A DNA stretch of 30,292 nt, from positions 1 to 30,292 of the forward strand of contig NEEC01000343.1 in NCBI GenBank assembly GCA_002189035.1, written 5' to 3'. The notes under the pieces are model-generated. The model was not told where the DNA came from. It saw nothing but the letters and a program-made list of their open reading frames with translations, and did no database searches. The DNA comes from Utricularia gibba. Lineage: Eukaryota > Streptophyta > Magnoliopsida > Lamiales > Lentibulariaceae. A program made the position numbers and the translations under genes. Shown here in pieces: positions 31 through 30,292 of the stretch (its first letter is position 1; each line of letters begins with the position of its first letter).

Positions 31-3000
31 CTCGAGAGCGCCTCCTCAAATAAAAGCTTGTGGATGAGAAAACCATTTGGGGTGCTCATGACATCCTAAC
101 TTCAATAAATGCATCACGATTTTCGTCGAATAGGACCGATTGGGCTCAGGAGTCGAACAGAACCTTGGGTCCGGATGAACTTCCCAACGAAAGCACCCAC
201 CCAAAAACGACAAGCTTTTCCTTCAGAAACAATGTAGGCAGCTGCCGAAAACCCAACGTTAATAAATGGATCACTTTTTTTGCCGGGCTACAAATGACTA
301 TGGGCCCGAGCCGACCGACCTCCGGCCAGATCCTGTGCCCCTCGAGAGCGCCTCCTCAAATAAAAAGCTGTGGTTGAGAAAACCATTTGGGGTGCTCATG
401 ACATCCTAACTTCAAAAAATGCATCACGATTTTCGTCGAATAGGACCCGATTGGGCTCAGGAGTCGAACCGAACCTTGGGTCCGGACGAAGTTCCAATGA
501 AAGCACCCACCCAAAAACGACAAGCTTTTCTTCAGAAACCATGTAGGCAGCTGCCGAAAACCCAACGTTAATAAATGGATCACTTTTTTTGCCGGGCTAC
601 AAATGACTATGGGCCCGAGTGACCTCCGGCCCGATCCTAGTGCCCTCGAGAGCGCCTCCTCAAATAAAAGCTTGTGGTTGAGAAAACCATTTGGGGTGCT
701 CATGACATCCTAACTTCAATAAATGCATCACGATTTTCGTCGAATAGGACCGATTGGGCTCAGGAGTCGAACCGAACCTTGGGTCCGGACGAAGTTCCCA
801 ATGAAAGCACCCAACCAAAAAACGACAAGCTTTTCCTTCAGAAACCATGTAGGCAGCTGCCGAAAACCCAACGTTAATAAATGGATCACTTTTTTTGCCG
901 GGCTACAAATGACTATGGGCCCAGCCGACCCGACCTCCGGCCCGATCCTAGTGCCCCTCGAGAGCGCCTCCTCAAATAAAAGCTGTGGTTGAGAAAACCA
1001 TTTGGGGTGCTCATGACATCCTAACTTCAAAAAATGCATCACGATTTTCGTCGAATAGGACCCGATTGGGCTCAGGAGTCGAACCGAACCTTGGGTCGGA
1101 CAAAGTTCCCAAAAAGCACCCACCCAAAAACGACAAGCTTTTCCTTCAGAAACCATGTAGGCAGCTGCCGAAAACCCAACGTTAATAAATGGATCACTTT
1201 TTTTGCCGGGCTACAAATGACTATGGGCCCGAGCGACGACCTCCGGCCCGATCCTAGTGCCCCTCGAGAGCGCCTCCTCAAATAAAAAGCATGTGGTTGA
1301 AAACCATTTGGGGTGCTCATGACATCCTAACTTCAATAAATGCATCACGATTTTCGTCGAATAGGACCCGATTGGCTCAGGAGTCGAACCGAACCTTGGG
1401 TCCGGATGAACTTCCCAACGAAAGCACCCACCCAAAAACGACAAGCTTTTCCTTCAGAAACCATGTAGGCAGCTGCCGAAAACCCAACGTTAATAAATGG
1501 ATCACTTTTTTTCCGGGCTACAAATGACTATGGGCCCGAGCCCGACCGACCTCGGCCCGATCCTGGCCCCTCGAGAGCGCCTCCTCAAATATAAAGCTTG
1601 TGGATGAGAAAACCATTTGGGGTGCTCATGACATCCTAACTTCAATAAATGCATCACGATTTTCGTCGAATAGGACCCGATTGGGCTCAGGAGTCGAACA
1701 GAACCTTGGGTCGGATGAACTTCCCAACGAAAGCCACCCAAAAACGACAAGCTTTTCCTTCAGAAACAATGTAGGCAGCTGCCGAAAACCCAACGTTAAT
1801 AAATGGATCACTTTTTTTGCCGGGCTACAAATGACTATGGGCCCGAGCGACAACCTCCGGCCAGATCCTAGTGCCCCTCGAGAGCGCCTCCTCAAATAAA
1901 AGCATGTGGTTGAGAAAACCATTTGGGGTGCTCATGACATCCTAACTTCAATAAATGCATCACGATTTTCGTCGAATAGGACCCGATTGGGCTCAGGAGT
2001 CGAACCGAACCTTGGGTCCGGATGAACTTCCCAACGAAAGCACCCACCCAAAAACGACAAGCTTTTCCTTCAGAAACCATGTAGGCAGCTGCCGAAAACC
2101 CAACGTTAATAAATGGATCACTTTTTTTGCCGGGCTACAAATGACTATGGGCCCGAGCCCGACCGACCTCCGGCCCGATCCTTGTGCCCCTCGAGAGCGC
2201 CTCCTCAAATATAAAGCTTGTGGATGAGAAAACCATTTGGGGTGCTCATGACATCCTAACTTCAATAAATGCATCACGATTTTCGTCGAATAGGACCCGA
2301 TTGGGCTCAGGAGTCGAACCGAACCTTGGGTCCGGACGAAGTTCCCAACGAACCACCCACCAAAAACGACAAGCTTTTCCTTCAGAAACCATGTAGGCAG
2401 CTGCCGAAAACCCAACGTTAATAAATGGATCACTTTTTTTGCCGGGCTACAAATGACTATGGGCCCGAGCCCGACCCGACTCCGGCCCGATCCTAGTGCC
2501 CCGAGAGCGCCTCCTCAAATAAAAAGCTTGTGGTTGAGAAAACCATTTGGGGTGCTCATGACATCCTAACTTCAATAAATGCATCACGATTTTCGTCGAA
2601 TAGGACCGATTGGGCTCAGGAGTCGAACCGAACCTTGGGTCCGGACGAATTCCCAACGAAAGCACCCACCAAAAACGACAAGCTTTTCCTTCAGAAACCA
2701 TGTAGGCAGCTGCCGAAAACCCAACGTTAATAAATGGATCACTTTTTTGCCGGGCTACAAATGACTATGGGCCCGAGTTCGACCCGACCTCCGGCCAGAT
2801 CCTAGTGCCCTCGAGAGCGCCTCCTCAAATAAAAAGCTGTGGTTGAGAAAACCATTTGGGGTGCTCATGACATCCTAACTTCAAAAAATGCATCACGATT
2901 TTCGTCGAATAGGACCCGATTGGGCTCAGGAGTCGAACCGAACCTTGGGTCCGGACGAACTTCCCAACGAAGCACCCCCCAAAAAAGACAAGCTTTTCCT

Positions 3001-6000
3001 TCAGAAACCATGTAGGCAGCTGCCGAAAACCCAACGTTAATAAATGGATCACTTTTTTTGCCGGGCTACAAATGACTATGGGCCCGAGTGACCTCCGGCC
3101 CGATCCTGTGCCCCTCGAGAGCGCCTCCTCAAATAAAAAGCTTGTGGTTGAGAAAACCATTTGGGGTGCTCATGACATCCTAACTTCAATAAATGCATCA
3201 CGATTTTCGTCGAATAGGACCCGATTGGGCTCAGGAGTCGAACCGAACCTTGGGTCCGGATGAACTTCCCAACGAAAGCACCCACCAAAAACGACAAGCT
3301 TTTCCTTCAGAAACATGTAGGCAGCTGCCGAAAACCCAACGTTAATAAATGGATCACTTTTTTTGCCGGGCTACAAATGACTATGGGCCCGAGCCGACCT
3401 GACCTCCGCCCGATCCTGGTGCCCCTCGAGAGCGCCTCCTCAAATATAAAGCTTGTGGAGAAAACCATTTGGGGTGCTCATGACATCCTAACTTCAAAAA
3501 TGCATCACGATTTTCGTCGAATAGGACCCGATTGGGCTCAGGAGTCGAACAGAACCTTGGGTCCGGATGAACTTCCCAACGAAAGCACCCACCCAAAAAC
3601 GACAAGCTTTTCCTTCAGAAACAATGTAGGCAGCTGCCGAAAACCCAACGTTAATAAATGGATCACTTTTTTTGCCGGGCTACAAATGACTATGGGCCCG
3701 AGTTCGACCCGACCTCCGGCCAGATCCTAGTGCCCCTCGAGAGCGCCTCCTCAAATAAAAGCATGTGGTTGAGAAAACCATTTGGGGTGCTCATGACATC
3801 CTAACTTCAAAAATGCATCACGATTTTCGTCGAATAGGACCCGATTGGGCTCAGGAGTCGAACCGAACCTTGGGTCCGGACGAAGTTCCCAATGAAAGCA
3901 CCCACCCAAAAACGACAAGCTTTTCCTTCAGAAACCATGTAGGCAGCTGCCGAAAACCCAACGTTAATAAATGGATCACTTTTTTGCCGGGCTACAAATG
4001 ACTATGGGCCCGAGCCTATGACCTCGGCCCGATCCTAGTGCCCCTCGAGAGCGCCTCCTCAAATAAAAAGCTTGTGGTTGAGAAAACCATTTGGGGTGCT
4101 CATGACATCCTAACTTCAATAAATGCATCACGATTTTCGTCGAATAGGACCGATTGGGCTCAAGTCGAACCGAACCTTGGGTCCGGACGAAGTTCCCAAT
4201 GAAAGCACCCACCAAAAACGACAAGCTTTTCCTTCAGAACCATGTAGGCAGCTGCCGAAAACCCAACGTTAATAAATGGATCACTTTTTTGCCGGGCTAC
4301 AAATGACTATGGGCCCGAGCCCGACCCGACCTCCGGCCCGATCCTAGTGCCCCTCGAGAGCGCCTCCTCAAATAAAAAGCATGTGGTTGAGAAAACCATT
4401 TGGGGTGCTCATGACATCCTAACTTCAAAAAATGCATCACGATTTTCGTCGAATAGGACCCGATTGGGCTCAGGAGTCGAACCGAACCTTGGGTCCGGAC
4501 GAACTTCCCAATGAAAGCACCCACCCAAAAACGACAAGCTTTTCCTTCAGAAACCATGTAGGCAGCTGCCGAAAACCCAACGTTAATAAATGGATCACTT
4601 TTTTTGCCGGGCTACAAATGACTATGGGCCGAGCCGACTGACCTCCGGCCCGATCCTAGTGCCCCTCGAGAGCGCCTCCTCAAATAAAAAGCTGTGGTTG
4701 AGAAAACCATTTGGGGTGCTCATGACATCCTAACTTCAAAAAATGCATCACGATTTTCGTCGAATAGGACCCGATTGGGCTCAGGAGTCGAACCGAACCT
4801 TGGGTCCGGACGAATTTCCGAACAAAACCCAACCAAAAACGACAAGCTTTTCCTTCAGAAACCATGTAGGCAGCTGCCGAAAACCCAACGTTAATAAATG
4901 GATCACTTTTTTGCCGGGCTACAAATGACTATGGGCCCGAGCCCGACCTGACCTCCGGCCCGATCCTGGTGCCCCTCGAGAGCGCCTCCTCAAATATAAA
5001 GCTTGTGGAAAGAAAACCATTTGGGGTGCTCATGACATCCTAACTTCAAAAAATGCATCACGATTTTCGTCGAATAGGACCCGATTGGGCTCAGGAGTCG
5101 AACCGAACCTTGGGTCCGGATGAACTTCCCAACGAAAGCACCCACCCAAAAACGACAAGCTTTTCCTTCAGAAACAATGTAGGCAGCTGCCGAAAACAAC
5201 GTTAATAAATGGATCACTTTTTTTGCCGGGCTACAAATGACTATGGGCCCGAGTTCGACCCGACCTCCGGCCCGATCCTAGTGCCCCTCGAGAGCGCCTC
5301 CTCAAATAAAAAGCTTGTGGTTGAGAAAACCATTTGGGGTGCTCATGACATCCTAACTTCAATAAATGCATCACGATTTTCGTCGAATAGGACCCGATTG
5401 GGCTCAGGAGTCGAACCGAACCTTGGGTCCGGATGAACTTCCAACGAAAGCACCCACCCAAAAACGACAAGCTTTTCCTTCAGAAACAATGTAGGCAGCT
5501 GCCGAAAACCCAACGTTAATAAATGGATCACTTTTTTTGCCGGGCTACAAATGACTATGGGCCCGAGCCGACCCGACCTCCGGCCCGATCCTGTGCCCCT
5601 CGAGAGCGCCTCCTCAAATATAAAGCTTGTGGTGAGAAAACCATTTGGGGTGCTCATGACATCCTAACTTCAATAAATGCATCACGATTTTCGTCGAATA
5701 GGACCCATTGGGCTCAGGAGTCGAACCGAACCTTGGGTCCGGATGAACTTCCAACGAAAGCACCCACCAAAAACGACAAGCTTTTCCTTCAGAAACAATG
5801 TAGGCAGCTGCCGAAAACCCAACGTTAATAAATGGATCACTTTTTTTGCCGGGCTACAAATGACTATGGGCCCGAGTTCGACCTCCGGCCCGATCCTAGT
5901 GCCCCTCGAGAGCGCCTCCTCAAATAAAAGCTTGTGGTTGAGAAAACCATTTGGGGTGCTCATGACATCCTAACTTCAATAAATGCATCACGATTTTCGT

Positions 6001-14825: not shown

Positions 14826-15750
14826 CTCGAGAGCGCCTCCTCAAATAAAAAGCTGTGGTTGAGAAAACATTTGGGGTGCTCATGACATCCTAACTTCAAA
14901 AAATGCATCACGATTTTTCGTCGAATAGGACCCGATTGGGCTCAGGAGTCGAACCGAACCTTGGGTCCGGACGAATTTCCGAACAAAGCACCCACCCAAA
15001 AACGACAAGCTTTTCCTTCAGAAACCATGTAGGCAGCTGCCGAAAACCCAACGTTAATAAATGGATCACTTTTTTGCCGGGCTACAAATGACTATGGGCC
15101 GAGCCCGACCTGACCTCCTCCGGCCCGATCCTGTGCCCCTCGAGAGCGCCTCCTCAAATATAAAGCTTGTGGACAAGAAAACCATTTGGGGTGCTCATGA
15201 CATCCTAACTTCAAAAAATGCATCACGATTTTCGTCGAATAGGACCCCATTGGGCTCAGGAGTCGAACCGAACCTTGGGTCCGGATGAATTCCCAACGAA
15301 AGCACCCACCAAAAACGACAAGCTTTTCCTTCAGAAACAAAGGCAGCTGCCGAAAACCCAACGTTAATAAATGGATCACTTTTTTTGCCGGGCTACAAAT
15401 GACTATGGGCCCGACCGACCTCCGGCCGGATCCTAGTGCCCCTCGAGAGCGCCTCCTCAAATATAAAGCTTGTGGACAAGAAAACCATTTGGGGTGCTCA
15501 TGACATCCTAACTTCAAAAAATGCATCACGATTTTCGTCGAATAGGACCCATTGGGCTCAGGAGTCGAACCGAACCTTGGGTCGGACGAAGTTCCCAACA
15601 AGCACCCACCCCAAAAACGACAAGCTTTTCCTTCAGAAACCATGTAGGCAGCTGCCGAAAACCCAACGTTAATAAATGGATCACTTTTTTTGCCGGGCTA
15701 CAAATGACTATGGGCCCGAGTCGATGACCTCCGGCCCGATCCTAGTGCCC
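14826..15750. repeat. HOR copy 1 (A 14826, B 15139, C 15442)
   Basis: First regular A-B-C set, 925 bp. A has GAATTTCCGAACAAAG; B and C both have TATAAAGCTTGTGGACAAG. The spacer before B carries a 3-bp duplication (CTCCTCC, around 15116-15122). It is preceded at 14209-14825 by an A-like/B pair lacking C, so the change of regime is fairly sharp. Confidence 0.78.
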
Positions 15751-16680
15751 CTCGAGAGCGCCTCCTCAAATAAAAAGCATGTGGTTGAGAAAACCATTTG
15801 GGGTGCTCATGACATCCTAACTTCAAAAATGCATCACGATTTTCGTCGAATAGGACCCGATTGGGCTCAGGAGTCGAACCGAACCTTGGGTCCGGACGAA
15901 TTTCCAACAAAAGCACCCACCCAAAAACGACAAGCTTTTCCTTCAGAAACCATGTAGGCAGCTGCCGAAAACCCAACGTTAATAAATGGATCACATTTTT
16001 TGCCGGGCTACAAATGACTATGGGCCGAGCCCGACCTGACCTCCGGCCCGATCCTGTGCCCTCGAGAGCGCCTCCTCAAATATAAAGCTTGTGGACAAGA
16101 AAACCATTTGGGGTGCTCATGACATCCTAACTTCAAAAAATGCATCACGATTTTCGTCGAATAGGACCCCATTGGGCTCAGGAGTCGAACCGAACCTTGG
16201 GTCCGGATGAATTCCCAACGAAAGCACCCACCCAAAAACGACAAGCTTTTCCTTCAGAAACAATGTAGGCAGCTGCCGAAAACCCAACGTTAATAAATGG
16301 ATCACTTTTTTTGCCGGGCTACAAATGACTATGGGCCCGAGCGACCCGACCTCCGGCCCGATCCTAGTGCCCCTCGAGAGCGCCTCCTCAAATATAAAGC
16401 TTGTGGACAAGAAAACCATTTGGGGTGCTCATGACATCCTAACTTCAAAAAATGCATCACGATTTTCGTCGAATAGGACCCCATTGGGCTCAGGAGTCGA
16501 ACCGAACCTTGGGTCGGACGAAGTTCCCAACAAAGCACCCCCAAAAACGACAAGCTTTTCCTTCAGAAACCATGTAGGCAGCTGCCGAAAACCCAACGTT
16601 AATAAATGGATCACTTTTTTTTGCCGGGCTACAAATGACTATGGGCCCGAGCGATGACCTCCGGCCCGATCCTAGTGCCC
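15751..16680. repeat. HOR copy 2 (A 15751, B 16061, C 16373)
   Basis: Regular set of 930 bp. A uses the GCATGTGGTTGAG linker and shows CACATTTTTT; B has GATGAATTCCCAACGAAAG and ACAATG; C has GACGAAGTTCCCAACAAAG. B and C share CCCCATTGGG. Confidence 0.78.
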
Positions 16681-17604
16681 CTCGAGAGCGCCTCCTCAAA
16701 TATAAAGCTGTGGAGAGAAAACCATTTGGGGTGCTCATGACATCCTAACTTCAAAAAATGCATCACGATTTTCGTCGAATAGGACCCATTGGGCTCAGGA
16801 GTCGAACCGAACCTTGGGTCCGGACGAATTTCCAACAAAGCACCCACCCAAAAACGACAAGCTTTTCCTTCAGAAACCATGTAGGCAGCTGCCGAAAACC
16901 CAACGTTAATAAATGGATCACTTTTTTGCCGGGCTACAAATGACTATGGGCCGAGCCCGACCTGACCTCCGGCCCGATCCTGGTGCCCCTCGAGAGCGCC
17001 TCCTCAAATAAAAGCTTGTGGACAGAAAACCATTTGGGGTGCTCATGACATCCTAACTTCAAAAAATGCATCACGATTTTCGTCGAATAGGACCCCATTG
17101 GGCTCAGGAGTCGAACCGAACCTTGGGTCCGGATGAATTCCCAACGAAAGCACCCACCAAAAACGACAAGCTTTTCCTTCAGAAACATGTAGGCAGCTGC
17201 CGAAAACCCAACGTTAATAAATGGATCACTTTTTTGCCGGGCTACAAATGACTATGGGCCCGAGTTCGACCGACCTCCGGCCAGATCCTAGTGCCCTCGA
17301 GAGCGCCTCCTCAAATATAAAGCTTGTGGACAAGAAAACCATTTGGGGTGCTCATGACATCCTAACTTCAAAAAATGCATCACGATTTTCGTCGAATAGG
17401 ACCCATTGGGCTCAGAGTCGAACCGAACCTTGGGTCGGACGAACCCAACAAAGCACCCACCAAAAACGACAAGCTTTTCCTTCAGAAACCATGTAGGCAG
17501 CTGCCGAAACCCAACGTTAATAAATGGATCACTTTTTTTGCCGGGCTACAAATGACTATGGGCCCGAGTCGATGACCGATGACCTCCGGCCCGATCCTAG
17601 TGCC
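16681..17604. repeat. HOR copy 3 (A 16681, B 16989, C 17296)
   Basis: Regular set of 924 bp. The A monomer has an unusual TATAAAGCTGTGGAGAG linker, suggesting a B/C-like front joined to an A body. C ends with a 7-bp tandem duplication GATGACC GATGACC (17571-17584) in the spacer. Confidence 0.75.
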
Positions 17605-18354
17605 CTCGAGAGCGCCTCCTCAAATAAAAGCATGTGGTGAGAAAACCATTTGGGGTGCTCATGACATCCTAACTTCAAAAAAATGCATCACGATTTTCGT
17701 CGAATAGGACCTGATTGGGCTCAGGAGTCGAACCGAACCTTGGGTCCGGACGAATTTCCGAACAACAGCACCCACCCCAAAACGACAAGCTTTTCCTTCA
17801 CAAACCATGTAGGCAGGTGCCGAAAACCCAACGTTAATAAATGGATCACATTTTTTCCGGGGCTACAAATGACTATGGGGCCGAGCCCGACCTGACCTCC
17901 GGCCCGATCCTGGTGCCCCTCGAGAGCGCCTCCTCAAATATAAAGCTTGTGGACAGAAAACCATTTGGGGTGCTCATGACATTTTTTTGCCGGGCTACAA
18001 ATGACTATGGGCCGAGCGACCGACCTCCGGCCCGATCCTGGTGCCCCTCGAGAGCGCCTCCTCAAATATAAAGCTTGTGGACAAGAAAACCATTTGGGGT
18101 GCTCATGACATCCTAACTTCAAAAAATGCATCACGATTTTCGTCGAATAGGACCCCATTGGGCTCAGGAGTCGAACCGAACCTTGGGTCCGGACGAATTC
18201 CCAACAAAAGCACCCACCCAAAAACGACAAGCTTTTCCTTCAGAAACCATGTAGGCAGCTGCCGAAAACCCAACGTTAATAAATGGATCACTTTTTTTGC
18301 CGGGCTACAAATGACTATGGGCCCGAGCCTGACCTCCGGCCCGATCCTAGGCCC
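17605..18354. repeat. HOR copy 4 with deleted B (A 17605, B 17919 short, C 18047)
   Basis: Only 750 bp because B has lost about 180 bp. The A monomer has the full private set CACAAACC, GGCAGGTGCC and CACATTTTTT, also found at 18355 and 24227. Confidence 0.8.
17919..18046. repeat. Truncated monomer, 128 bp, internal deletion
   Basis: Begins as a B monomer (spacer GAGCCCGACCTGACC, CCTGGTG, TATAAAGCTTGTGGACAG) and reads normally to GCTCATGACAT (about 17982). It then jumps straight to TTTTTTGCCGGGCTAC, which normally lies about 180 bp further on. CTAACTT, the ATGCAT region, the GTCGAACC block, the second HindIII-type site and GGCAGCTGCC are all missing. The joined ends share a few bases (ACAT, if the CACATTTTTT variant was the right-hand partner), consistent with a microhomology deletion. 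It is the shortest unit in the window. Confidence 0.93.
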
Positions 18355-19281
18355 CTCGAGAGCGCCTCCTCAAATAAAAAGCTGTGGAGAAAACCATTTG
18401 GGGTGCTCATGACATCCTAACTTCAAAAAATGCATCACGATTTTCGTCGAATAGGACCGATTGGGCTCAGGAGTCGAACCGAACCTTGGGTCCGGACGAA
18501 TTTCCGAACAACAGCACCACCCAAAAACGACAAGCTTTTCCTTCACAAACCATGTAGGCAGGTGCCGAAAACCCAACGTTAATAAATGGATCACATTTTT
18601 TGCCGGGCTACAAATGACTATGGGCCGAGCCGACCTGACCTCCGGCCCGATCCTGGTGCCCCTCGAGAGCGCCTCCTCAAATATAAAGCTTGTGGACAAG
18701 AAAACCATTTGGGGTGCTCATGACATCCTAACTTCAAAAATGCATCACGATTTTCGTCGAATAGGACCCCATTGGGCTCAGGAGTCGAACCGAACCTTGG
18801 GTCCGGATGAATTCCCACGAAAGCACCCACCCAAAAACGACAAGCTTTTCCTTCAGAAACATGTAGGCAGCTGCCGAAAACCCAACGTTAATAAATGGAT
18901 CACTTTTTTTGCCGGGCTACAAATGACTATGGGCCCGAGTTCGACCGACCTCCGGCCCGATCCTAGTGCCCCTCGAGAGCGCCTCCTCAAATATAAAGCT
19001 TGTGGACAAGAAACCATTTGGGGTGCTCATGACATCCTAACTTCAAAAAATGCATCACGATTTTCGTCGAATAGGACCCCATTGGGCTCAGGAGTCGAAC
19101 CGAACCTTGGGTCCGGACGAATTCCCAACAAAGCACCCACCCAAAAACGACAAGCTTTTCCTTCAGAAACCATGTAGGCAGCTGCCGAAAACCCAACGTT
19201 AATAAATGGATCACTTTTTTGCCGGGCTACAAATGACTATGGGCCCGAGCCGACCTGACCTCCGGCCCGATCCTAGTGCCC
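18355..19281. repeat. HOR copy 5 (A 18355, B 18662, C 18972)
   Basis: Regular set of 927 bp. A carries CACAAACC, GGCAGGTGCC and CACATTTTTT; B GATGAATTCCCACGAAAG; C GACGAATTCCCAACAAAG. One of the clearest examples of the trimer. Confidence 0.82.
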
Positions 19282-20205
19282 CTCGAGAGCGCCTCCTCAA
19301 ATAAAAAGCTGTGGTTGAGAAAACCATTTGGGGTGCTCATGACATCCTAACTTCAAAAATGCATCACGATTTTCGTCGAATAGGACCCGATTGGGCTCAG
19401 GAGTCGAACCGAACCTTGGGTCCGGACGAATTTCCCAACAAGCACCCACCCAAAAACGACAAGCTTTTCCTTCAGAAACCATGTAGGCAGGTGCCGAAAA
19501 CCCAACGTTAATAAATGGATCACATTTTTGCCGGGCTACAAATGACTATGGGCCGAGCCCGACCTGACCTCCGGCCCGATCCTGGTGCCCCTCGAGAGCG
19601 CTCCTCAAATATAAAGCTTGTGGACAAGAAAACCATTTGGGGTGCTCATGACATCCTAACTTCAAAAATGCATCACGATTTTCGTCGAATAGGACCCTTG
19701 GGCTCAGGAGTCGAACAAACCTTGGGTCCGGATGAACTTCCCAACGAAAGCCACCCAAAAACGACAAGCTTTTCCTTCAGAAACAATGTAGGCAGCTGCC
19801 GAAAACCCAACGTTAATAAATGGATCACTTTTTTGCCCGGGCTACAAATGACTATGGGCCCGAGTTCGACCCGACCTCCGGCCAGATCCTAGTGCCCCTC
19901 GAGAGCGCCTCCTCAAATATAAAGCTTGTGGACAAGAAAACCATTTGGGGTGCTCATGACATCCTAACTTCAAAAAAATGCATCACGATTTTCGTCGAAT
20001 AGGACCCCATTGGGCTCAGGAGTCGAACCGAACCTTGGGTCGGACGAATTCCCAACAAAGCACCCCCAAAAACGACAAGCTTTTCCTTCAGAAACCATGT
20101 AGGCAGCTGCCGAAAACCCAACGTTAATAAATGGATCACTTTTTTTGCCGGGCTACAAATGACTATGGGCCGAGCGACCTGACCTCCGGCCCGATCCTAG
20201 TGCCC
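19282..20205. repeat. HOR copy 6 (A 19282, B 19591, C 19898)
   Basis: Regular set of 924 bp. A has GGCAGGTGCC and CACATTTTT but keeps CAGAAACC. B keeps the older GATGAACTTCCCAACGAAAG with ACAATG and a shortened CGAACAAACC. The spacer before C has CCAGATCCTAG, a marker that follows B-like units in the left domain too. Confidence 0.8.
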
Positions 20206-21137
20206 CTCGAGAGCGCCTCCTCAAATAAAAGCTTGTGGTTGAGAAAACCATTTGGGGTGCTCATGACATCCTAACTTCAAAAAATGCATCACGATTTTCG
20301 TCGAATAGGACCCGATTGGGCTCAGGAGTCGAACCGAACCTTGGGTCCGGACGAATTTCCAACAAAAGCACCCACCCAAAAACGACAAGCTTTTCCTTCA
20401 GAAACCATGTAGGCAGGTGCCGAAAACCCAACGTTAATAAATGGATCACTTTTTTGCCGGGCTACAAATGACTATGGGCCGAGCCCGACCTGACCTCCGG
20501 CCCGATCCTGGTGCCCCTCGAGAGCGCCTCCTCAAATATAAAGCTTGTGGACAAGAAAACCATTTGGGGTGCTCATGACATCCTAACTTCAAAAAATGCA
20601 TCACGATTTTCGTCGAATAGGACCCCATTGGGCTCAGGAGTCGAACCGAACCTTGGGTCGGACGAATTTTCCAACAAAGCACCCACCCAAAAACGACAAG
20701 CTTTTCCTTCAGAAACATGTAGGCAGGTGCCGAAAACCCAACGTTAATAAATGGATCACTTTTTTGCCGGGCTACAAATGACTATGGGCCGAGCCCGACC
20801 TGACCTCCGGCCCGATCCTGGTGCCCCTCGAGAGCGCCTCCTCAAATATAAAGCTTGTGGACAAGAAAACCATTTGGGGTGCTCATGACATCCTAACTTC
20901 AAAAAATGCATCACGATTTTCGTCGAATAGGACCCGATTGGGCTCAGGAGTCGAACCGAACCTTGGGTCCGGACGAATTCCAACAAAGCACCCACCCAAA
21001 AACGACAAGCTTTTCCTTCAGAAACCATGTAGGCAGCTGCCGAAAACCCAACGTTAATAAATGGATCACTTTTTTTGCCGGGCTACAAATGACTATGGGC
21101 CCGAGTTCGACCGACCTCCGGCCCGATCCTAGTGCCC

Positions 21138-21292
21138 CTCGAGAGCGCCTCCTCAAATATAAAGCTTGTGGACAAGAAAACCATTTGGGGTGCTCATGAC
21201 ATCCTAACTTCAAAAAATGCATCACGATTTTCGTCGAATAGGACCCCATTGGGCTCAGGAGTCGAACCGAACCTTGGGTCCGGACGAATTCC
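21138..21292. repeat. Left half-unit (L, 155 bp) of the monomer
   Basis: First of two diverged sub-repeats inside the monomer. Landmarks in order: GAGAGCGCC (21141), AAGCTT (21162), AGAAAACCAT (21175), TGCATCAC preceded by an A-rich run (21212-21225), GGGCTCAGGAG (21251), TCGAACCGAACCT (21262). Each has a counterpart in the right half at about +155. In monomers of the left domain this half reads AATAAATGCATCAC, matching 13 of 14 bases of AATAAATGGATCAC in the right half. Seen directly; common ancestry of the halves is inferred from the collinear order. Confidence 0.8.
21258..21268 (-). promoter_or_regulatory. B-box-like motif (RNA polymerase III), one per monomer, example copy
   Basis: The minus strand reads GGTTCGACTCC, a perfect match to the tRNA-gene B-box consensus GGTTCGANTCC bound by TFIIIC. 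It is present in most monomers. It is changed at one base where CGAACAGAACC occurs (as at 31, 1570, 3425) and removed at 29778. On the same strand a T6 run follows about 40 bases on (21212-21217 complement), of the kind that ends polymerase III transcription. I find no convincing A box upstream, so this is a motif match, not a promoter call. Confidence 0.3.
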
Positions 21293-21444
21293 CAACAAAG
21301 CACCCACCAAAAACGACAAGCTTTTCCTTCAGAAACCATGTAGGCAGCTGCCGAAAACCCAACGTTAATAAATGGATCACTTTTTTTGCCGGGCTACAAA
21401 TGACTATGGGCCGAGCGATGACCTCCGGCCCGATCCTAGTGCCC
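21293..21444. repeat. Right half-unit (R, 152 bp) of the monomer
   Basis: Second diverged sub-repeat. Landmarks in order: AAAGCACC (21297), AAGCTT (21318), AGAAACCAT (21331), AATAAATGGATCAC (21367-21380), TATGGGCCGAG (21405, GGGCCCGAG in most copies), and the spacer where most copies read CCGACCTGACCT. My hand alignment of L and R gives roughly 60-65% identity over the best-preserved 100 columns or so, with small gaps only. R never carries the TATAAA, and its equivalent of the GGAGTCGAACC block has decayed into the hypervariable spacer. Confidence 0.8.
21343..21352. repeat. 10-bp perfect palindrome GGCAGCTGCC, one per monomer, example copy
   Basis: GGCAGCTGCC is its own reverse complement and includes a PvuII-type CAGCTG. 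It lies within one of the best-conserved blocks of the right half-unit. It is changed to GGCAGGTGCC in several A monomers (17605, 18355, 19282, 20206, 22367, 24227, 25149) and in the chimera at 20517, and shortened at 21445. Confidence 0.85.
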
Positions 21445-22366
21445 CTCGAGAGCGCCTCCTCAAATAAAAAGCTGTGGTTGAGAAAACCATTTGGGTGCTC
21501 ATGACATCCTAACTTCAAAAAATGCATCACGATTTTCGTCGAATAGGACCCGATTGGGCTCAGGAGTCGAACGAACCTTGGGTCCGGACGAATTTCCGAA
21601 CAACAGCACCCACCCAAAACGACAAGCTTTTCCTTCAGAAACCATGTAGGCAGTGCCGAAAACCCAACGTTAATAAATGGATCACATTTTTTGCCGGGCT
21701 ACAAATGACTATGGGCCCGAGCCCGACCTGACCTCCGGCCCGATCCTGGTGCCCCTCGAGAGCGCCTCCTCAAATATAAAGCTTGTGGACAAGAAAACCA
21801 TTTGGGGTGCTCATGACATCCTAACTTCAAAAAATGCATCACGATTTTCGTCGAATAGGACCCCATTGGGCTCAGGAGTCGAACCGAACCTTGGGTCCGG
21901 ACGAATTCCCAACGAAAGCACCCACCAAAAACGACAAGCTTTTCCTTCAGAAACAATGTAGGCAGCTGCCGAAAACCCAACGTTAATAAATGGATCACTT
22001 TTTTTGCCGGGCTACAAATGACTATGGGCCCGAGCGACCGACTCCGGCCGATCCTAGTGCCCTCGAGAGCGCCTCCTCAAATATAAAGCTTGTGGACAAG
22101 AAAACCATTTGGGGTGCTCATGACATCCTAACTTCAAAAAATGCATCACGATTTTCGTCGAATAGGACCCATTGGGCTCAGGAGTCGAACCGAACCTTGG
22201 GTCCGGACGAATTCCCAACAACAGCACCCAAAAAACGACAAGCTTTTCCTTCAGAAACCATGTAGGCAGCTGCCGAAAACCCAACGTTAATAAATGGATC
22301 ACTTTTTTGCCGGGCTACAAATGACTATGGGCCCGAGCGATGACCTCCGGCCCGATCCTAGTGCCC
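21445..22366. repeat. HOR copy 8 (A 21445, B 21755, C 22062)
   Basis: Regular set of 922 bp. A has GAATTTCCGAACAACAG, CACATTTTTT and a one-base-deleted palindrome, GGCAGTGCC. B has ACAATG; C has GAATTCCCAACAACAG. Confidence 0.8.
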
Positions 22367-23299
22367 CTCGAGAGCGCCTCCTCAAATAAAAAAGCTTGTG
22401 GTTGAGAAAACCATTTGGGGTGCTCATGACATCCTAACTTCAAAAAATGCATCACGATTTTCGTCGAATAGGACCCATTGGGCTCAGGAGTCGAACCGAA
22501 CCTTGGGTCCGGACGAATTTCCCAACAACAGCACCCAAAAAAACGACAAGCTTTTCCTTCAGAAAACCATGTAGGCAGGTGCCGAAAACCCAACGTTAAT
22601 AAATGGATCACTTTTTTTGCCGGGCTACAAATGACTATGGGCCGAGCCCGACCTGACCTCCGGCCCGATCCTGGTGCCCCTCGAGAGCGCCTCCTCAAAT
22701 ATAAAGCTTGTGGACAAGAAAACCATTTGGGGTGCTCATGACATCCTAACTTCAAAAAATGCATCACGATTTTCGTCGAATAGGACCCGATTGGGCTCAG
22801 GAGTCGAACCGAACCTTGGGTCCGGACGAACTTCCCAACGAAAGCACCCACCCAAAAACGACAAGCTTTTCCTTCAGAAACAATGTAGGCAGCTGCCGAA
22901 AACCCAACGTTAATAAATGGATCACTTTTTTGCCGGGCTACAAATGACTATGGGCCCGAGCCGACCGACCTCCGGCCCGATCCTGGTGCCCCTCGAGAGC
23001 GCCTCCTCAAATATAAAGCTTGTGGACAAGAAAACCATTTGGGGTGCTCATGACATCCTAACTTCAAAAAAATGCATCACGATTTTCGTCGAATAGGACC
23101 CCATTGGGCTCAGGAGTCGAACCGAACCTTGGGTCCGGACGAATTCCCAACAAAGCACCCACCCAAAAACGACAAGCTTTTCCTTCAGAAACCATGTAGG
23201 CAGCTGCCGAAAACCCAACGTTAATAAATGGATCACTTTTTTGCCGGGCTACAAATGACTATGGGCCGAGCGATGACCTCCGGCCCGATCCTAGTGCCC
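22367..23299. repeat. HOR copy 9 (A 22367, B 22680, C 22992)
   Basis: Regular set of 933 bp. A has AACAACAG and GGCAGGTGCC with a normal CACTTTTTTT; B has GACGAACTTCCCAACGAAAG and ACAATG; C is standard. Confidence 0.8.
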
Positions 23300-24226
23300 C
23301 TCGAGAGCGCCTCCTCAAATATAAAAGCTGTGGTTGAGAAAACCATTTGGGGTGCTCATGACATCCTAACTTCAAAAATGCATCACGATTTTCGTCGAAT
23401 AGGACCCGATTGGGCTCAGGAGTCGAACCGAACCTTGGGTCCGGACGAATTTCCGAACAAAGCACCCACCAAAAACGACAAGCTTTTCCTTCAGAAACCA
23501 TGTAGGCAGCTGCCGAAAACCCAACGTTAATAAATGGATCACTTTTTTGCCGGGCTACAAATGACTATGGGCCGAGCCCGACCTGACCTCCGGCCCGATC
23601 CTGGTGCCCTCGAGAGCGCCTCCTCAAATATAAAGCTTGTGGACAAGAAAACCATTTGGGGTGCTCATGACATCCTAACTTCAAAAAATGCATCACGATT
23701 TTCGTCGAATAGGACCCCATTGGGCTCAGGAGTCGAACCGAACCTTGGGTCCGGACGAATTCCAACGAAAGCACCCACCCAAAAACGACAAGCTTTTCCT
23801 TCAGAAACCATGTAGGCAGCTGCCGAAAACCCAACGTTAATAAATGGATCACTTTTTTTGCGGGCTACAAATGACTATGGGCCCGAGCGACCGACCTCCG
23901 GCCCGATCCTAGTGCCCCTCGAGAGCGCCTCCTCAAATAAAAGCTTGTGGACAAGAAAACCATTTGGGGTGCTCATGACATCCTAACTTCAAAAAATGCA
24001 TCACGATTTTCGTCGAATAGGACCCGATTGGGCTCAGGAGTCGAACCGAACCTTGGGTCCGGACGAATTCCCAACAAGCACCCACCCAAAAACGACAAGC
24101 TTTTCCTTCAGAAACCATGTAGGCAGCTGCCGAAAACCCAACGTTAATAAATGGATCACTTTTTTTTGCCGGGCTACAAATGACTATGGGCCGAGCCGAC
24201 CTGACCTCCGGCCCGATCCTGTGCCC
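23300..24226. repeat. HOR copy 10 (A 23300, B 23609, C 23918)
   Basis: Regular set of 927 bp. A has an intermediate TATAAAAGCTGTGGTTGAG linker and retains GGCAGCTGCC. C lacks TATAAA but keeps the ACAAG linker. Confidence 0.78.
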
Positions 24227-25148
24227 CTCGAGAGCGCCTCCTCAAATAAAAGCTGTGGTTGAGAAAACCATTTGGGGTGCTCATGACATCCTAACTTCAA
24301 AAAATGCATCACGATTTTCGTCGAATAGGACCCGATTGGGCTCAGGAGTCGAACCGAACCTTGGGTCCGGACGAATTTCCGAACAAAGCACCCACCCAAA
24401 AACGACAAGCTTTTCCTTCACAAACCATGTAGGCAGGTGCCGAAAACCCAACGTTAATAAATGGATCACATTTTTTGCCGGGCTACAAATGACTATGGGC
24501 CGAGCCGACCTGACCTCCGGCCCGATCCTGGTGCCCTCGAGAGCGCCTCCTCAAATATAAAGCTTGTGGACAAGAAAACCATTTGGGGTGCTCATGACAT
24601 CCTAACTTCAAAAATGCATCACGATTTTCGTCGAATAGGACCCTTGGGCTCAGGAGTCGAACCGAACCTTGGGTCCGGATGAATTCCCAACGAAAGCACC
24701 CACCAAACGACAAGCTTTTCCTTCAGAAACCATGTAGGCAGCTGCCGAAAACCCAACGTTAATAAATGGATCACTTTTTTGCCGGGCTACAAATGACTAT
24801 GGGCCCGAGTTCGACCCGACCTCCGGCCGATCCTAGTGCCCCTCGAGAGCGCCTCCTCAAATAAAAGCTTGTGGACAGAAAACCATTTGGGGTGCTCATG
24901 ACATCCTAACTTCAAAAAATGCATCACGATTTTCGTCGAATAGGACCCATTGGGCTCAGGAGTCGAACCGAACCTTGGGTCCGGACGAATTCCCAACAAA
25001 GCACCCACCAAAAAACGACAAGCTTTTCCTTCAGAAACCATGTAGGCAGCTGCCGAAAACCCAACGTTAATAAATGGATCACTTTTTTTGCCGGGCTACA
25101 AATGACTATGGGCCCGAGCCGACTGACCTCCGGCCCGATCCTGTGCCC
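24227..25148. repeat. HOR copy 11 (A 24227, B 24536, C 24842)
   Basis: Regular set of 922 bp. A repeats the full CACAAACC, GGCAGGTGCC, CACATTTTTT haplotype seen at 17605 and 18355, about 6 kb away. B has CCCTTGGG, lacking the CGA/CCA of other copies. Confidence 0.8.
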
Positions 25149-26081
25149 CTCGAGAGCGCCTCCTCAAATATAAAGCTTGTGGATGAGAAAACCATTTGGG
25201 GTGCTCATGACATCCTAACTTCAAAAAATGCATCACGATTTTCGTCGAATAGGACCGATTGGGCTCAGGAGTCGAACCGAACCTTGGGTCCGGACGAACT
25301 TCCAACAAAGCACCCACCCAAAAACGACAAGCTTTTCCTTCAGAAACCATGTAGGCAGGTGCCGAAAACCCAACGTTAATAAATGGATCACTTTTTTGCC
25401 GGGCTACAAATGACTATGGGGCCGAGCCCGACCTGACCTCCCGGCCCGATCCTGGTGCCCCTCGAGAGCGCCTCCTCAAATATAAAGCTTGTGGACAAGA
25501 AAACCATTTGGGGTGCTCATGACATCCTAACTTCAAAAAATGCATCACGATTTTCGTCGAATAGGACCCCATTGGGCTCAGGAGTCGAACCGAACCTTGG
25601 GTCCGGATGAATTCCCAACAAAGCACCCACCCAAAAACGACAAGCTTTTCCTTCAGAAACCATGTAGGCAGCTGCCGAAAACCCAACGTTAATAAATGGA
25701 TCACTTTTTTTGCCGGGCTACAAATGACTATGGGCCCGAGCCGACCTGACCTCCGGCCCGATCCTGTGCCCCTCGAGAGCGCCTCCTCAAATATAAAGCT
25801 GTGGATGAGAAAACCATTTGGGGTGCTCATGACATCCTAACTTCAAAAATGCATCACGATTTTCGTCGAATAGGACCCGATTGGGCTCAGGAGTCGAACC
25901 GAACCTTGGGTCCGGACGAATTCCAACAAAAGCACCCACCCAAAAACGACAAGCTTTTCCTTCAGAAACCATGTAGGCAGCTGCCGAAAACCCAACGTTA
26001 AAAAATGGATCACTTTTTTTGCCGGGCTACAAATGACTATGGGCCCGAGTCGACCTGACCTCCGGCCCGATCCTAGTGCCC
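25149..26081. repeat. HOR copy 12 (A-like 25149, B 25461, C-like 25772)
   Basis: 933 bp, but the types begin to blur. The A-position monomer has TATAAAGCTTGTGGATGAG with GGCAGGTGCC downstream; the C-position monomer has TATAAAGCTGTGGATGAG. B is standard, preceded by GAGCCCGACCTGACC and CCTGGTG. Confidence 0.65.
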
Positions 26082-27310
26082 CTCGAGAGCGCCTCCTCAA
26101 ATAAAAAGCTGTGGGAGAAAACCATTTGGGGTGCTCATGACATCCTAACTTCAAAAAAATGCATCACGATTTTCGTCGAATAGGACCCGATTGGGCTCAG
26201 GAGTCGAACCGAACCTTGGGTCCGGACGAATTCCCAACAAAGCACCCACCCAAAAACGACAAGCTTTTCCTTCAGAAACATGTAGGCAGCTGCCGAAAAC
26301 CCAACGTTAATAAATGGATCACTTTTTTGCCGGGCTACAAATGACTATGGGCCGAGCCCGACCTGACCTCCGGCCCGATCCTGGTGCCCCTCGAGAGCGC
26401 CTCCTCAAATATAAAGCTTGTGGACAAGAAAACCATTTGGGGTGCTCATGACATCCTAACTTCAAAAAATGCATCACGATTTTCGTCGAATAGGACCCTT
26501 GGGCTCAGGAGTCGAACCGAACCTTGGGTCCGGACGAATTTCCCAACAAAGCACCCACCAAAAACGACAAGCTTTTCCTTCAGAAACCATGTAGGCAGCT
26601 GCCGAAACCCAACGTTAATAAATGGATCACTTTTTTTGCCGGGCTACAAATGACTATGGGCCCGAGCCGACCGACCTCCGGCCCGATCCTAGTGCCCCTC
26701 GAGAGCGCCTCCTCAAATATAAAGCTTGTGGAGAAAAAACCATTTGGGGTGCTCATGACATCCTAACTTCAAAAATGCATCACGATTTTCGTCGAATAGG
26801 ACCCATTGGGCTCAGGAGTCGAACCGAACCTTGGGTCCGGACGAATTCCCAACAAAGCACCCACCCAAAACGACAAGCTTTTCCTTCAGAAACATGTAGG
26901 CAGCTGCCGAAAACCCAACGTTAATAAATGGATCACTTTTTTTGCCGGGCTACAAATGACTATGGGCCCGAGTTCGACCCGACCTCCGGCCCGATCCTAG
27001 TGCCCCTCGAGAGCGCCTCCTCAAATAAAAAGCTTGTGGTTGAGAAAACCATTTGGGGTGCTCATGACATCCTAACTTCAAAAATGCATCACGATTTTCG
27101 TCGAATAGGACCCATTGGGCTCAGGAGTCGAACCGAACCTTGGGTCCGGACGAAGTTCCCAACAAAGCACCCACCAAAAACGACAAGCTTTTCCTTCAGA
27201 AACCATGTAGGCAGCTGCCGAAAACCCAACGTTATAAATGGATCACTTTTTTTGCCGGGCTACAAATGACTATGGGCCCGAGCGATGACCTCCGGCCCGA
27301 TCCTAGTGCC
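26082..27310. repeat. HOR copy 13, expanded to four monomers (26082, 26390, 26698, 27006)
   Basis: 1229 bp. A, B and C at 26082, 26390 and 26698 are followed by an additional monomer at 27006. This has a C-type spacer in front (GTTCGACCCGACC), a TTGAG linker of the left-domain kind, and GACGAAGTTCCCAACAAAG. It looks like a second exchange product or a re-imported older monomer. Confidence 0.65.
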
Positions 27311-28240
27311 CTCGAGAGCGCCTCCTCAAATAAAAGCTGTGGTTGAGAAAACCATTTGGGGTGCTCATGACATCCTAACTTCAAAAAATGCATCACGATT
27401 TTCGTCGAATAGGACCCGATTGGGCTCAGGAGTCGAACCGAACCTTGGGTCCGGACGAATTCCGAAAAAAGCACCCACCCAAAAACGACAAGCTTTTCCT
27501 TCAGAAACCATGTAGGCAGCTGCCGAAAACCCAACGTTAATAAATGGATCACTTTTTTGCCGGGCTACAAATGACTATGGGCCGAGCCCGACCTGACCTC
27601 CGGCCCGATCCTGGTGCCCCTCGAGAGCGCCTCCTCAAATATAAAGCTTGTGGACAAGAAAACCATTTGGGGTGCTCATGACATCCTAACTTCAAAAAAT
27701 GCATCACGATTTTCGTCGAATAGGACCCGATTGGGCTCAGGAGTCGAACCGAACCTTGGGTCCGGAAATTCCCAACGAAAGCACCCACCCAAAAACGACA
27801 AGCTTTTCCTTCAGAACCATGTAGGCAGCTGCCGAAAACCCAACGTTAATAAATGGATCACTTTTTTTGCCGGGCTACAAATGACTATGGGCCGAGTTCG
27901 ACCCGACCTCCGGCCCGATCCTAGTGCCCCTCGAGAGCGCCTCCTCAAATAAAAAAGCTGTGGTTGAGAAAACCATTTGGGGTGCTCATGACATCCTAAC
28001 TTCAAAAAATGCATCACGATTTTCGTCGAATAGGACCCGATTGGGCTCAGGAGTCGAACCGAACCTTGGGTCCGGACGAAGTTCCGAACAAAGCACCCAC
28101 CCAAAAACGACAAGCTTTTCCTTCAGAAACCATGTAGGCAGCTGCCGAAAACCCAACGTTAATAAATGGATCACTTTTTTTGCCGGGCTACAAATGACTA
28201 TGGGCCCGAGCGACCCGACCTCCGGCCCGATCCTGTGCCC
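27311..28240. repeat. HOR copy 14, degraded (A 27311, B 27620, third 27930)
   Basis: A and B are recognisable; B has lost part of its variable block (GGAAATTCCC, around 27763-27772). The third monomer has the C-type spacer but a TTGAG linker and GAAGTTCCGAAC, so it is not a true C. I place the end of the ordered trimer here. Confidence 0.55.
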
Positions 28241-30292
28241 CTCGAGAGCGCCTCCTCAAATAAAAGCTGTGGTTGAGAAAACCATTTGGGGTGCTCATGA
28301 CATCCTAACTTCAAAATGCATCACGATTTTCGTCGAATAGGACCATTGGGCTCAGGAGTCGAACCGAACCTTGGGTCCGGACGAAGTTCCCAATGAAAGC
28401 ACCCACCAAAAACGACAAGCTTTTCCTTCAGAAACCATGTAGGCAGCTGCCGAAAACCCAACGTTAATAAATGGATCACTTTTTTTGCCGGGCTACAAAT
28501 GACTATGGGCCGAGCCGACCTGACCTCCGGCCCGATCCTAGTGCCCCTCGAGAGCGCCTCCTCAAATATAAAGCTTGTGGTTGAGAAAACCATTTGGGGT
28601 GCTCATGACATCCTAACTTCAAAAAATGCATCGATTTTCGTCGAATAGGACCCGATTGGGCTCAGGAGTCGAACCGAACCTTGGGTCCGGACGAATTCCC
28701 AACAAAGCACCCACCAAAACGACAAGCTTTTCCTTCAGAAACCATGTAGGCAGCTGCCGAAAACCCAACGTTAATAAATGGATCACTTTTTTGCCGGGCT
28801 ACAAATGACTATGGGCCGAGCCGACCCGACCTCCGGCCCGATCCTAGTGCCCCTCGAGAGCGCCTCCTCAAATATAAAGCTTGTGGACAAGAAAAACCAT
28901 TTGGGGTGCTCATGACATCCTAACTTCAAAAAATGCATCACGATTTTCGTCGAATAGGACCCGATTGGGCTCAGGAGTCGAACCGAACCTTGGGTCCGGA
29001 CGAATTCCCAACAAAGCACCCACCCAAAAACGACAAGCTTTTCCTTCAGAAACAATGTAGGCAGCTGCCGAAAACCCAACGTTAATAAATGGATCACTTT
29101 TTTTCCGGGCTACAATGACTATGGGCCGAGCGACCCGACCTCCGGCCCGATCCTGTGCCCTCGAGAGCGCCTCCTCAAATAAAAAGCTTGTGGTTGAGAA
29201 AACCATTTGGGGTGCTCATGACATCCTAACTTCAAAAAATGCATCACGATTTTCGTCGAATAGGACCCGATTGGGCTCAGGAGTCGAACCGAACCTTGGG
29301 TCCGGACGAATTCCCAACGAAAGCACCCACCCAAAAACGACAAGCTTTTCCTTCAGAAACCATGTAGGCAGCTGCCGAAAACCCAACGTTAATAAATGGA
29401 TCACTTTTTTTGCCGGGCTACAAATGACTATGGGCCCGAGCGACCCGACCTCCGGCCCGATCCTAGTGCCCCTCGAGAGCGCCTCCTCAAATATAAAGCT
29501 GTGGTGAGAAAACCATTTGGGTGCTCATGACATCCTAACTTCAAAAAATGCATCACGATTTTCGTCGAATAGGACCCGATTGGGCTCAGGAGTCGAACGA
29601 ACCTTGGGTCCGGACGAAGTTCCAACAAAGCACCCACCAAAAACGACAAGCTTTTCCTTCAGAAACCATGTAGGCAGCTGCCGAAAACCCAACGTTAATA
29701 AATGGATCACTTTTTTTGCCGGGCTACAAATGACTATGGGCCCGAGCCCGACCCGACCTCCGGCCGATCCTGGTGCCCTCGAGAGCGCCTCCTCAAATAT
29801 AAAGCTTGTGGATGAGAAAACCATTTGGGGTGCTCATGACATCCTAACTTCAAAAATGCATCACGATTTTCGTCGAATAGGACCGGATTGGTCGAACGAG
29901 TTCCCAATGAAAGCACCACCAAAAACGACAAGCTTTTCCTTCAGAAACCATGTAGGCAGCTGCCGAAAACCCAACGTTAATAAATGGATCACTTTTTTGC
30001 CGGGCTACAAATGACTATGGGCCGAGACGAATGACCTCCGGCCCGATCCTAGTGCCCCTCGAGAGCGCCTCCTCAAATAAAAAGCTGTGGTTGAGAAAAC
30101 CATTTGGGGTGCTCATGACATCCTAACTTCAAAAAATGCATCACGATTTTCGTCGAATAGGACCCGATTGGCTCTCAGGAGTCGAACCGAACCTTGGGTC
30201 CGGACGAATTCCCAACAAAGCACCCACCCAAAAACGACAAGCTTTTCCTTCAGAAACCATGTAGGCAGCTGCCGAAAACCCAACGTTAATAA
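28241..30292. repeat. Right-hand irregular domain, end of window
   Basis: Monomers at 28241, 28547, 28853, 29160, 29472, 29778 and 30058 (cut by the window) do not follow A-B-C. TTGAG, ACAAG, TGAG and ATGAG linkers mix. AATGAAAG, a left-domain marker, returns at about 28392 and 29906, but CAATAAATGC does not. The last monomer, 30058-30292, is complete to CCAACGTTAATAA. Confidence 0.7.
29778..30057. repeat. Shortened monomer, 280 bp, with double small deletion
   Basis: Starts normally (TATAAAGCTTGTGGATGAG). Between 29881 and 29906 the usual GATTGGGCTCAGGAGTCGAACC and GGGTCCGGACGAAG sequence is reduced to GATTGGTCGAACGAG. About 9 bases are lost before TCGAAC and about 20 after it. The copy therefore lacks the GGAGTCGAACC motif and the GTCCGGAC palindrome present in nearly all others. 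Confidence 0.9.

Follow-up and report, generated by a model that had tools for sequence, protein, structure and literature searches.

An ancient dimeric satellite with half-units of about 155 bp in the genome of Utricularia gibba

Satellites whose repeat unit is a dimer of two related sub-units are a known kind, and the tandem array of ~308-bp monomers studied here, which makes up a 30,292-bp contig of the plant Utricularia gibba (NEEC01000343.1 in assembly GCA_002189035.1; contig C189, taken in its entirety as the window of this study), has a layout comparable to that of the human alpha satellite families 1 and 2. In the relevant passages of PMC8122249, suprachromosomal families 1 and 2 of alpha satellite are described as consisting of two diverged units that share an origin and alternate along the array, as we find in U. 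gibba, and alpha satellite likewise builds higher-order repeats from such units. The two systems differ in that the alpha units are ~171 bp long and diverge by up to ~30% within a dimer, whereas those of U. gibba are ~155 bp long and differ by about half. Further, one of the alpha units bears a CENP-B box, whereas none stands out in the U. gibba unit, and centromere binding has been demonstrated for alpha satellite, whereas the U. gibba array is at most a candidate for it. The same passages present a second parallel, the 72-bp pericentric satellite of the beetle Palorus subdepressus, which comprises ~20% of the genome and whose variants fall into two clades that alternate as 144-bp dimers, again as here. 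The centromeric repeat Gn7c161 of Genlisea nigrocaulis, from the same plant family as U. gibba, has a similar unit length of 161 bp and, as characterized in the corresponding part of PMC4542322, a single period, unlike the dimer of half-units A and B (hereafter AB) reported below. A comparison with Gn7c161 by way of two primers only gave no clear likeness (16, 69, 87 and 88 of 300 shuffled primers were as good).

For U. gibba itself, the account in PMC8333044 gives an assembly of ca. 100 Mb with 18 contigs longer than 1 Mb, four putatively entire chromosomes among them, and states, citing Lan et al. 2017, that the putative centromeric regions are without satellites and have few centromeric chromoviruses. 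Our literature search, which excluded Lan et al. 2017 (a work that may describe it), found no description of a U. gibba satellite. The interest of the present dimer lies in its genome-wide setting: this small plant genome has many copies of it, but none were found in the chromosomes assembled end to end.

The assembly used here comprises 100,091,633 bp in 516 contigs and carries plant-type TTTAGGG telomere repeats. The window proved to be one tandem array of AB dimers on the forward strand (positions 1–30,292; period ~308–309 bp), in which Tandem Repeats Finder (TRF) recovered 96.5 copies of a short 309-bp unit at positions 1–29,891, a long tandem run of a probably non-coding unit, as is characteristic of satellite DNA. 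The motif CTCGAGAGCGCC, with up to two mismatches, occurs at 99 sites in it, and 96 of the 98 spacings between these are 301–315 bp. The two exceptions are a truncated unit of 128 bp between two monomer starts (17,919–18,046, forward strand), which is also registered by TRF, and a shortened monomer of 280 bp (29,778–30,057, forward strand). The first complete monomer, starting at a CTCGAG motif, provides an example of both halves on the forward strand, with half-unit A at 31–184 and half-unit B at 185–340, and the next monomer begins at 341. Scanning the window with profiles of the two halves yielded 199 units that cover 99% of it, with zero neighbours of the same type. Some of the short indels by which monomers differ may be errors of long-read sequencing.

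An earlier note on this DNA had proposed that the 308-bp monomer is a concealed ancient dimer of ~155-bp units, since the same landmark words appeared to occur twice in the same order within it. All 12 of these words were found in their places, with offsets of 155, 158, 158, 157, 160 and 158 bp, and the proposal was borne out both by alignments of the halves, which beat shuffled sequences, and by the separation of A from B in 32 contigs (see below). We derived a majority consensus of 312 bp from 96 monomers (mean pairwise identity 0.937), split it at four points, and compared each pair of halves with 1000 mononucleotide and 1000 dinucleotide shuffles. The z-scores were 7.36–8.51 in global and 9.09–9.94 in local alignment, with 0 of 1000 shuffles reaching the real score in every test. 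In the consensus alignment, A and B are equal in length and similar from end to end. When single monomers were put to a similar test, 93 of 96 reached a z of at least 5 (minimum 4.47), whereas none of 43 pieces of 308 bp taken from non-satellite DNA of this genome did so (maximum 2.51); single units from three stretches of other tandem repeats (L053 and L062, ~342 bp; L045, 535 bp) remained below a z of 1 at every rotation tried. An alignment-free measure gave the same period: among raw lag identities in the window (lags 20–699, excluding 291–329 and 591–649 around 308 and 617), lags 154–156 rank at the top, with 0.335 at lag 155 against a mean of 0.254 and a standard deviation of 0.013. The repeat unit contains two homologous, diverged sub-units, and A and B are of shared ancestry. 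The connection with nucleosome-scale satellite units that the note drew may hold, by virtue of the ~155-bp length. A deeper repeat inside A or B was also sought and discarded, the z-scores for halves of the units showing no signal (1.69, 0.00, −0.43 and −0.86).

To place the doubling in time, we used half consensuses from 32 contigs, a set not including C402, C460 and C477, with the units located and labelled by half-profiles trained on the window. All 32 A sequences lie apart from all 32 B sequences (0/32 violations on either side), and the midpoint-rooted tree supports the two groups with values of 0.739 and 1.0. Identities are 0.64–1.0 between A halves (mean 0.80) and 0.69–1.0 between B halves (mean 0.82), as against 0.43–0.62 between A and B (mean 0.51). 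Because the two groups stay separate in all 32 contigs, the doubling is older than the split of the sampled subfamilies; the dimer thus predates both these subfamilies and the window array. Nine of the 32 contigs were tested singly for likeness of A to B, and all showed it (z 2.9–9.7; 0–2 of 300 shuffles as good), the likeness being strongest in C150 (z 9.7). As for the breadth of the family, we sampled 41 contigs picked by number, an arbitrary choice skewed to low numbers: 21 have the AB satellite, 13 have none and seven have only N where sampled (stretches of C9, C12, C14, C40, C45, C450 and C516). Diverged subfamilies were encountered in several of the sampled contigs and in C34, C37 and C47, which were located by motif. 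Many of the satellite contigs examined are small.

The register in which these arrays are maintained can be read from the spacing of an exact 12-base B motif, pairs of which number 8,949 at ~310 bp versus 29 at ~155 bp; hence, exchange for B has been almost wholly in the two-unit register. Judged by eye from the parts of the matches inspected, the 29 close pairs look like shortened units rather than B-B arrays. Homogenization in pairs is likewise displayed by the 199 alternating units of the window together with the B-B spacings of ~310 bp. No single-period array of ~155 bp was seen in this genome, B motif pairs having been counted and A-A pairs not. An ancestral single-unit array, which a dimeric satellite need not retain, was thus not seen for B in this genome, and the single-unit stage is one that we infer.

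The earlier note had further envisaged a build-up in three steps, from 155 to 308 to 925 bp. Of this scheme, the homology of the halves and the reality of the 925-bp level stand, but the latter is local to ~14.8–25.5 kb of the window and is not family-wide. Monomers three apart are alike beyond chance (z 5.7, 0 of 1000 permutations, 22 substitution columns), and the source of this signal is the monomers at 14,826–25,149 (identity 0.833, z 4.2). Outside this stretch, four segments of 16 monomers each gave no significant signal (z −1.3, 1.1, 0.0 and 1.6). Lag-3 identity at the 22 columns and the haplotypes delimit a three-dimer higher-order repeat stretch of ~925-bp period at 14,826–25,460 on the forward strand. 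Elsewhere in the family the top spacings are ~622–630 bp (C25, C60 and C34) or 1,248 bp (C47); a single 155–308–925 history therefore does not fit the family. The similarity of window monomers at lags 16 and 21 (z 3.4 and 3.8) was likewise higher than in any of 1000 permutations, perhaps as traces of larger duplications.

Together, we consider it very probable that the AB-dimer satellite arose through common origin of its halves, doubling, homogenization in the two-unit register, division into subfamilies and later formation of local higher-order repeats. Under this model, one ancestral ~155-bp unit would have given rise to A and B, most simply via tandem duplication, and the two would then have diverged until about half-identical. 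Thereafter, the arrays would have been copied and homogenized almost only in the two-unit register, presumably because dimers exchanged sequence with one another by unequal crossing-over or gene conversion, and exchange between A and B was probably suppressed by their divergence; homogenization of this type preserves the likeness within A and within B. Several subfamilies would subsequently have descended from the dimer, and the formation of local higher-order repeats, for instance the 925-bp one, would have come later. Several points weigh against this history. No single-unit stage has been observed, the likeness of A to B is weak in C10 (z 2.9, equalled by 2 of 300 shuffles), C18 (z 3.5) and C7 (z 3.6, equalled by 1 of 300), and profiles trained on the window can favour a division into A and B. 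Moreover, A and B do not alternate regularly through a degraded stretch of C103 (~24–29 kb), and isolated breaks occur in C103 (30–40 kb), C197, C15 (a contig with an insertion) and C300.

The family also occurs in a composite form. C150 is a tandem array (positions 1–27,282; loci L066–L068) of ~2,330-bp units, each combining three AB dimers with ~1,475 bp that contain long inverted repeats. Of the 40 candidates scored for the ~1,475-bp part, matches lay on nine contigs. In C402 (2,629,907 bp), the composite extends from 2,605,372 to 2,622,000, the last base fetched (L076–L077), with matches to the dimer part continuing to 2,627,856; it thus reaches the end region of this contig. An inverted-repeat element beside the plain satellite of C460 is related to that of the composite (77–78% over 474- and 314-bp pieces). 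In our reading, the composite formed when part of an array edge was amplified along with an element.

Across the assembly, there are 12,600 matches to the B core (up to two mismatches) and 10,431 to the A core (up to three mismatches); at ~309 bp for each of the former, the satellite is estimated to occupy ~3.9 Mb, or ~4% of the assembly. Exact motifs common to several subfamilies match 10,707 times for B and 6,420 times for A, and in contig order the matches start at C7 for both, so that none fall on C1–C6, although diverged copies could escape an exact motif. C1–C4 are chromosome-scale (8.50, 6.19, 5.35 and 3.85 Mb): telomere repeats open all four and also close C3 and C4, which thus run from telomere to telomere, and C1 and C2 end in other sequence. 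In the satellite contig C15 lies a copia-type gag frame (Pfam PF14223, E 2.3e-27), whose surrounding DNA is found again on C1–C4 at 96–99% identity (14 of the 40 matches scored). The copia copies are clustered on C2 (2.83–2.92 Mb), C3 (4.63–4.71 Mb) and C4 (1.98–2.05 Mb), and one copy on C1, at 5.29 Mb, is among the matches scored. Perhaps the clusters on C2, C3 and C4 mark pericentromeres that lack the AB satellite; 18 kb taken from those on C3 and C4 yielded no significant match in a profile scan (best E 2.1). In C460 (880,676 bp), all eight samples at 1.0–84.6 kb are satellite, the array ends near 87.6 kb, all eight samples at 96.0–216.6 kb are non-satellite and the last 300 bases are satellite again. 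The inner edge of this array is adjoined by the inverted-repeat element and by a Ty3-like element in four frames (C460 ~87.6–92.2 kb; locus L098, 2,975–3,447 and 3,467–7,607).

These observations allow other accounts of the satellite to be weighed. That the halves resemble each other through chance or low complexity, as the A-runs and short CG-rich words abundant in both might suggest to a reader of the sequence, has next to no probability: the dinucleotide shuffles failed at each of the four splits, no non-satellite piece reached a z of 5, and the half-versus-half tests rule out chance likeness as far as they reach. Two related satellites could instead have diverged elsewhere beforehand and then been joined into one unit and co-amplified. 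The distance between A and B in all 32 contigs (the mean identity of 0.51) and the fact that no single-unit array is left would fit such a joining, but it requires two separate arrays and a joining event, none of which was seen, and it faces halves of the same length that are alike from end to end. We regard it as unlikely. The satellite might also stem from the internal repeats of a mobile or composite element akin to the 2,330-bp repeat of C150. In support of this, the C150 halves branch low in the tree, this contig has the highest within-contig A-B identity (0.616), and next to the plain satellite of C460 lies a related inverted-repeat element. However, the C150 composite is tandemly repeated too, and it contains three dimers with a mutual likeness of ~75%, so that dimers must be older than the composite. 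Moreover, amplification of an array edge together with an element explains the composite equally well, and we deem a source of this kind very unlikely.

A further possibility is that the satellite contigs derive from another organism sequenced alongside, such as prey or a commensal. The lack of exact motifs on C1–C6 and the small size of many satellite contigs could be taken to point that way, but this explanation is extremely improbable, given that the copia element of C15 is found at 96–99% identity on C1–C4 and that the satellite is joined to other DNA in C460 and, in its composite form, in the 2.63-Mb C402. On account of the shared copia element and these junctions, the satellite belongs to this genome.

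With regard to function, it is an evenly balanced possibility that on part of the karyotype these arrays have a heterochromatic packaging role, probably in pericentromeres or centromeres. The C460 array, with its flanking inverted-repeat and Ty3-like elements, counts toward such a chromosomal setting; the absence of the exact motifs from C1–C6 counts against it, as does the outcome of a search for a CENP-B-like box, whose best matches had 6–7 of 9 core positions, with 108–293 of 300 shuffles as good. The box AATAAATGCATCAC, shared by A and B, was considered as a functional site and set aside: it lies in the best-conserved A-B window, yet 231 of 2000 column permutations were as good. More tentatively, and at less than even odds, there may be two kinds of chromosomes in one karyotype, one with long blocks of AB satellite around the centromeres and one with none.

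Other repeats were also met in the genome. A second satellite, with a period of ~342 bp and a GC content of ~0.52, is represented by L053 (C32), L062 (C200) and L017 (C102, 1–100); L053 and L062 were rejected as relatives of AB, having no match to the half consensuses, and they show no internal dimer. The 535-bp tandem repeat of L045 (C400, 5,001–7,500) was likewise rejected, with only 19-bp matches at E 0.012. GC-rich DNA (0.66–0.69) was found in L042 (C70), L047 (C13), L052 (C28), L054 (C42) and L064 (C350), and a sub-period of ~133 bp is among the top spacings in four of these five loci, being weak in L052. These contigs, five of the 13 free of AB, gave only chance-level profile matches of ~9–11 bits and were dismissed as AB relatives. 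An Rfam search of seven loci gave no match; the 133-bp DNA is perhaps ribosomal spacer.

The published statement on satellite-free centromeres in U. gibba may reflect which chromosomes assembled. If there are indeed two kinds of chromosomes, that statement would cover only those that assembled through lacking the satellite, and the view of satellite-free centromeres would need revision; mapping of CENH3 could then compare two types of centromere within one nucleus. For the satellite family itself, a doubling that is ordered before the sampled subfamilies, combined with graded divergence, offers a usable series on how a satellite doubles and how exchange in the old register is lost.

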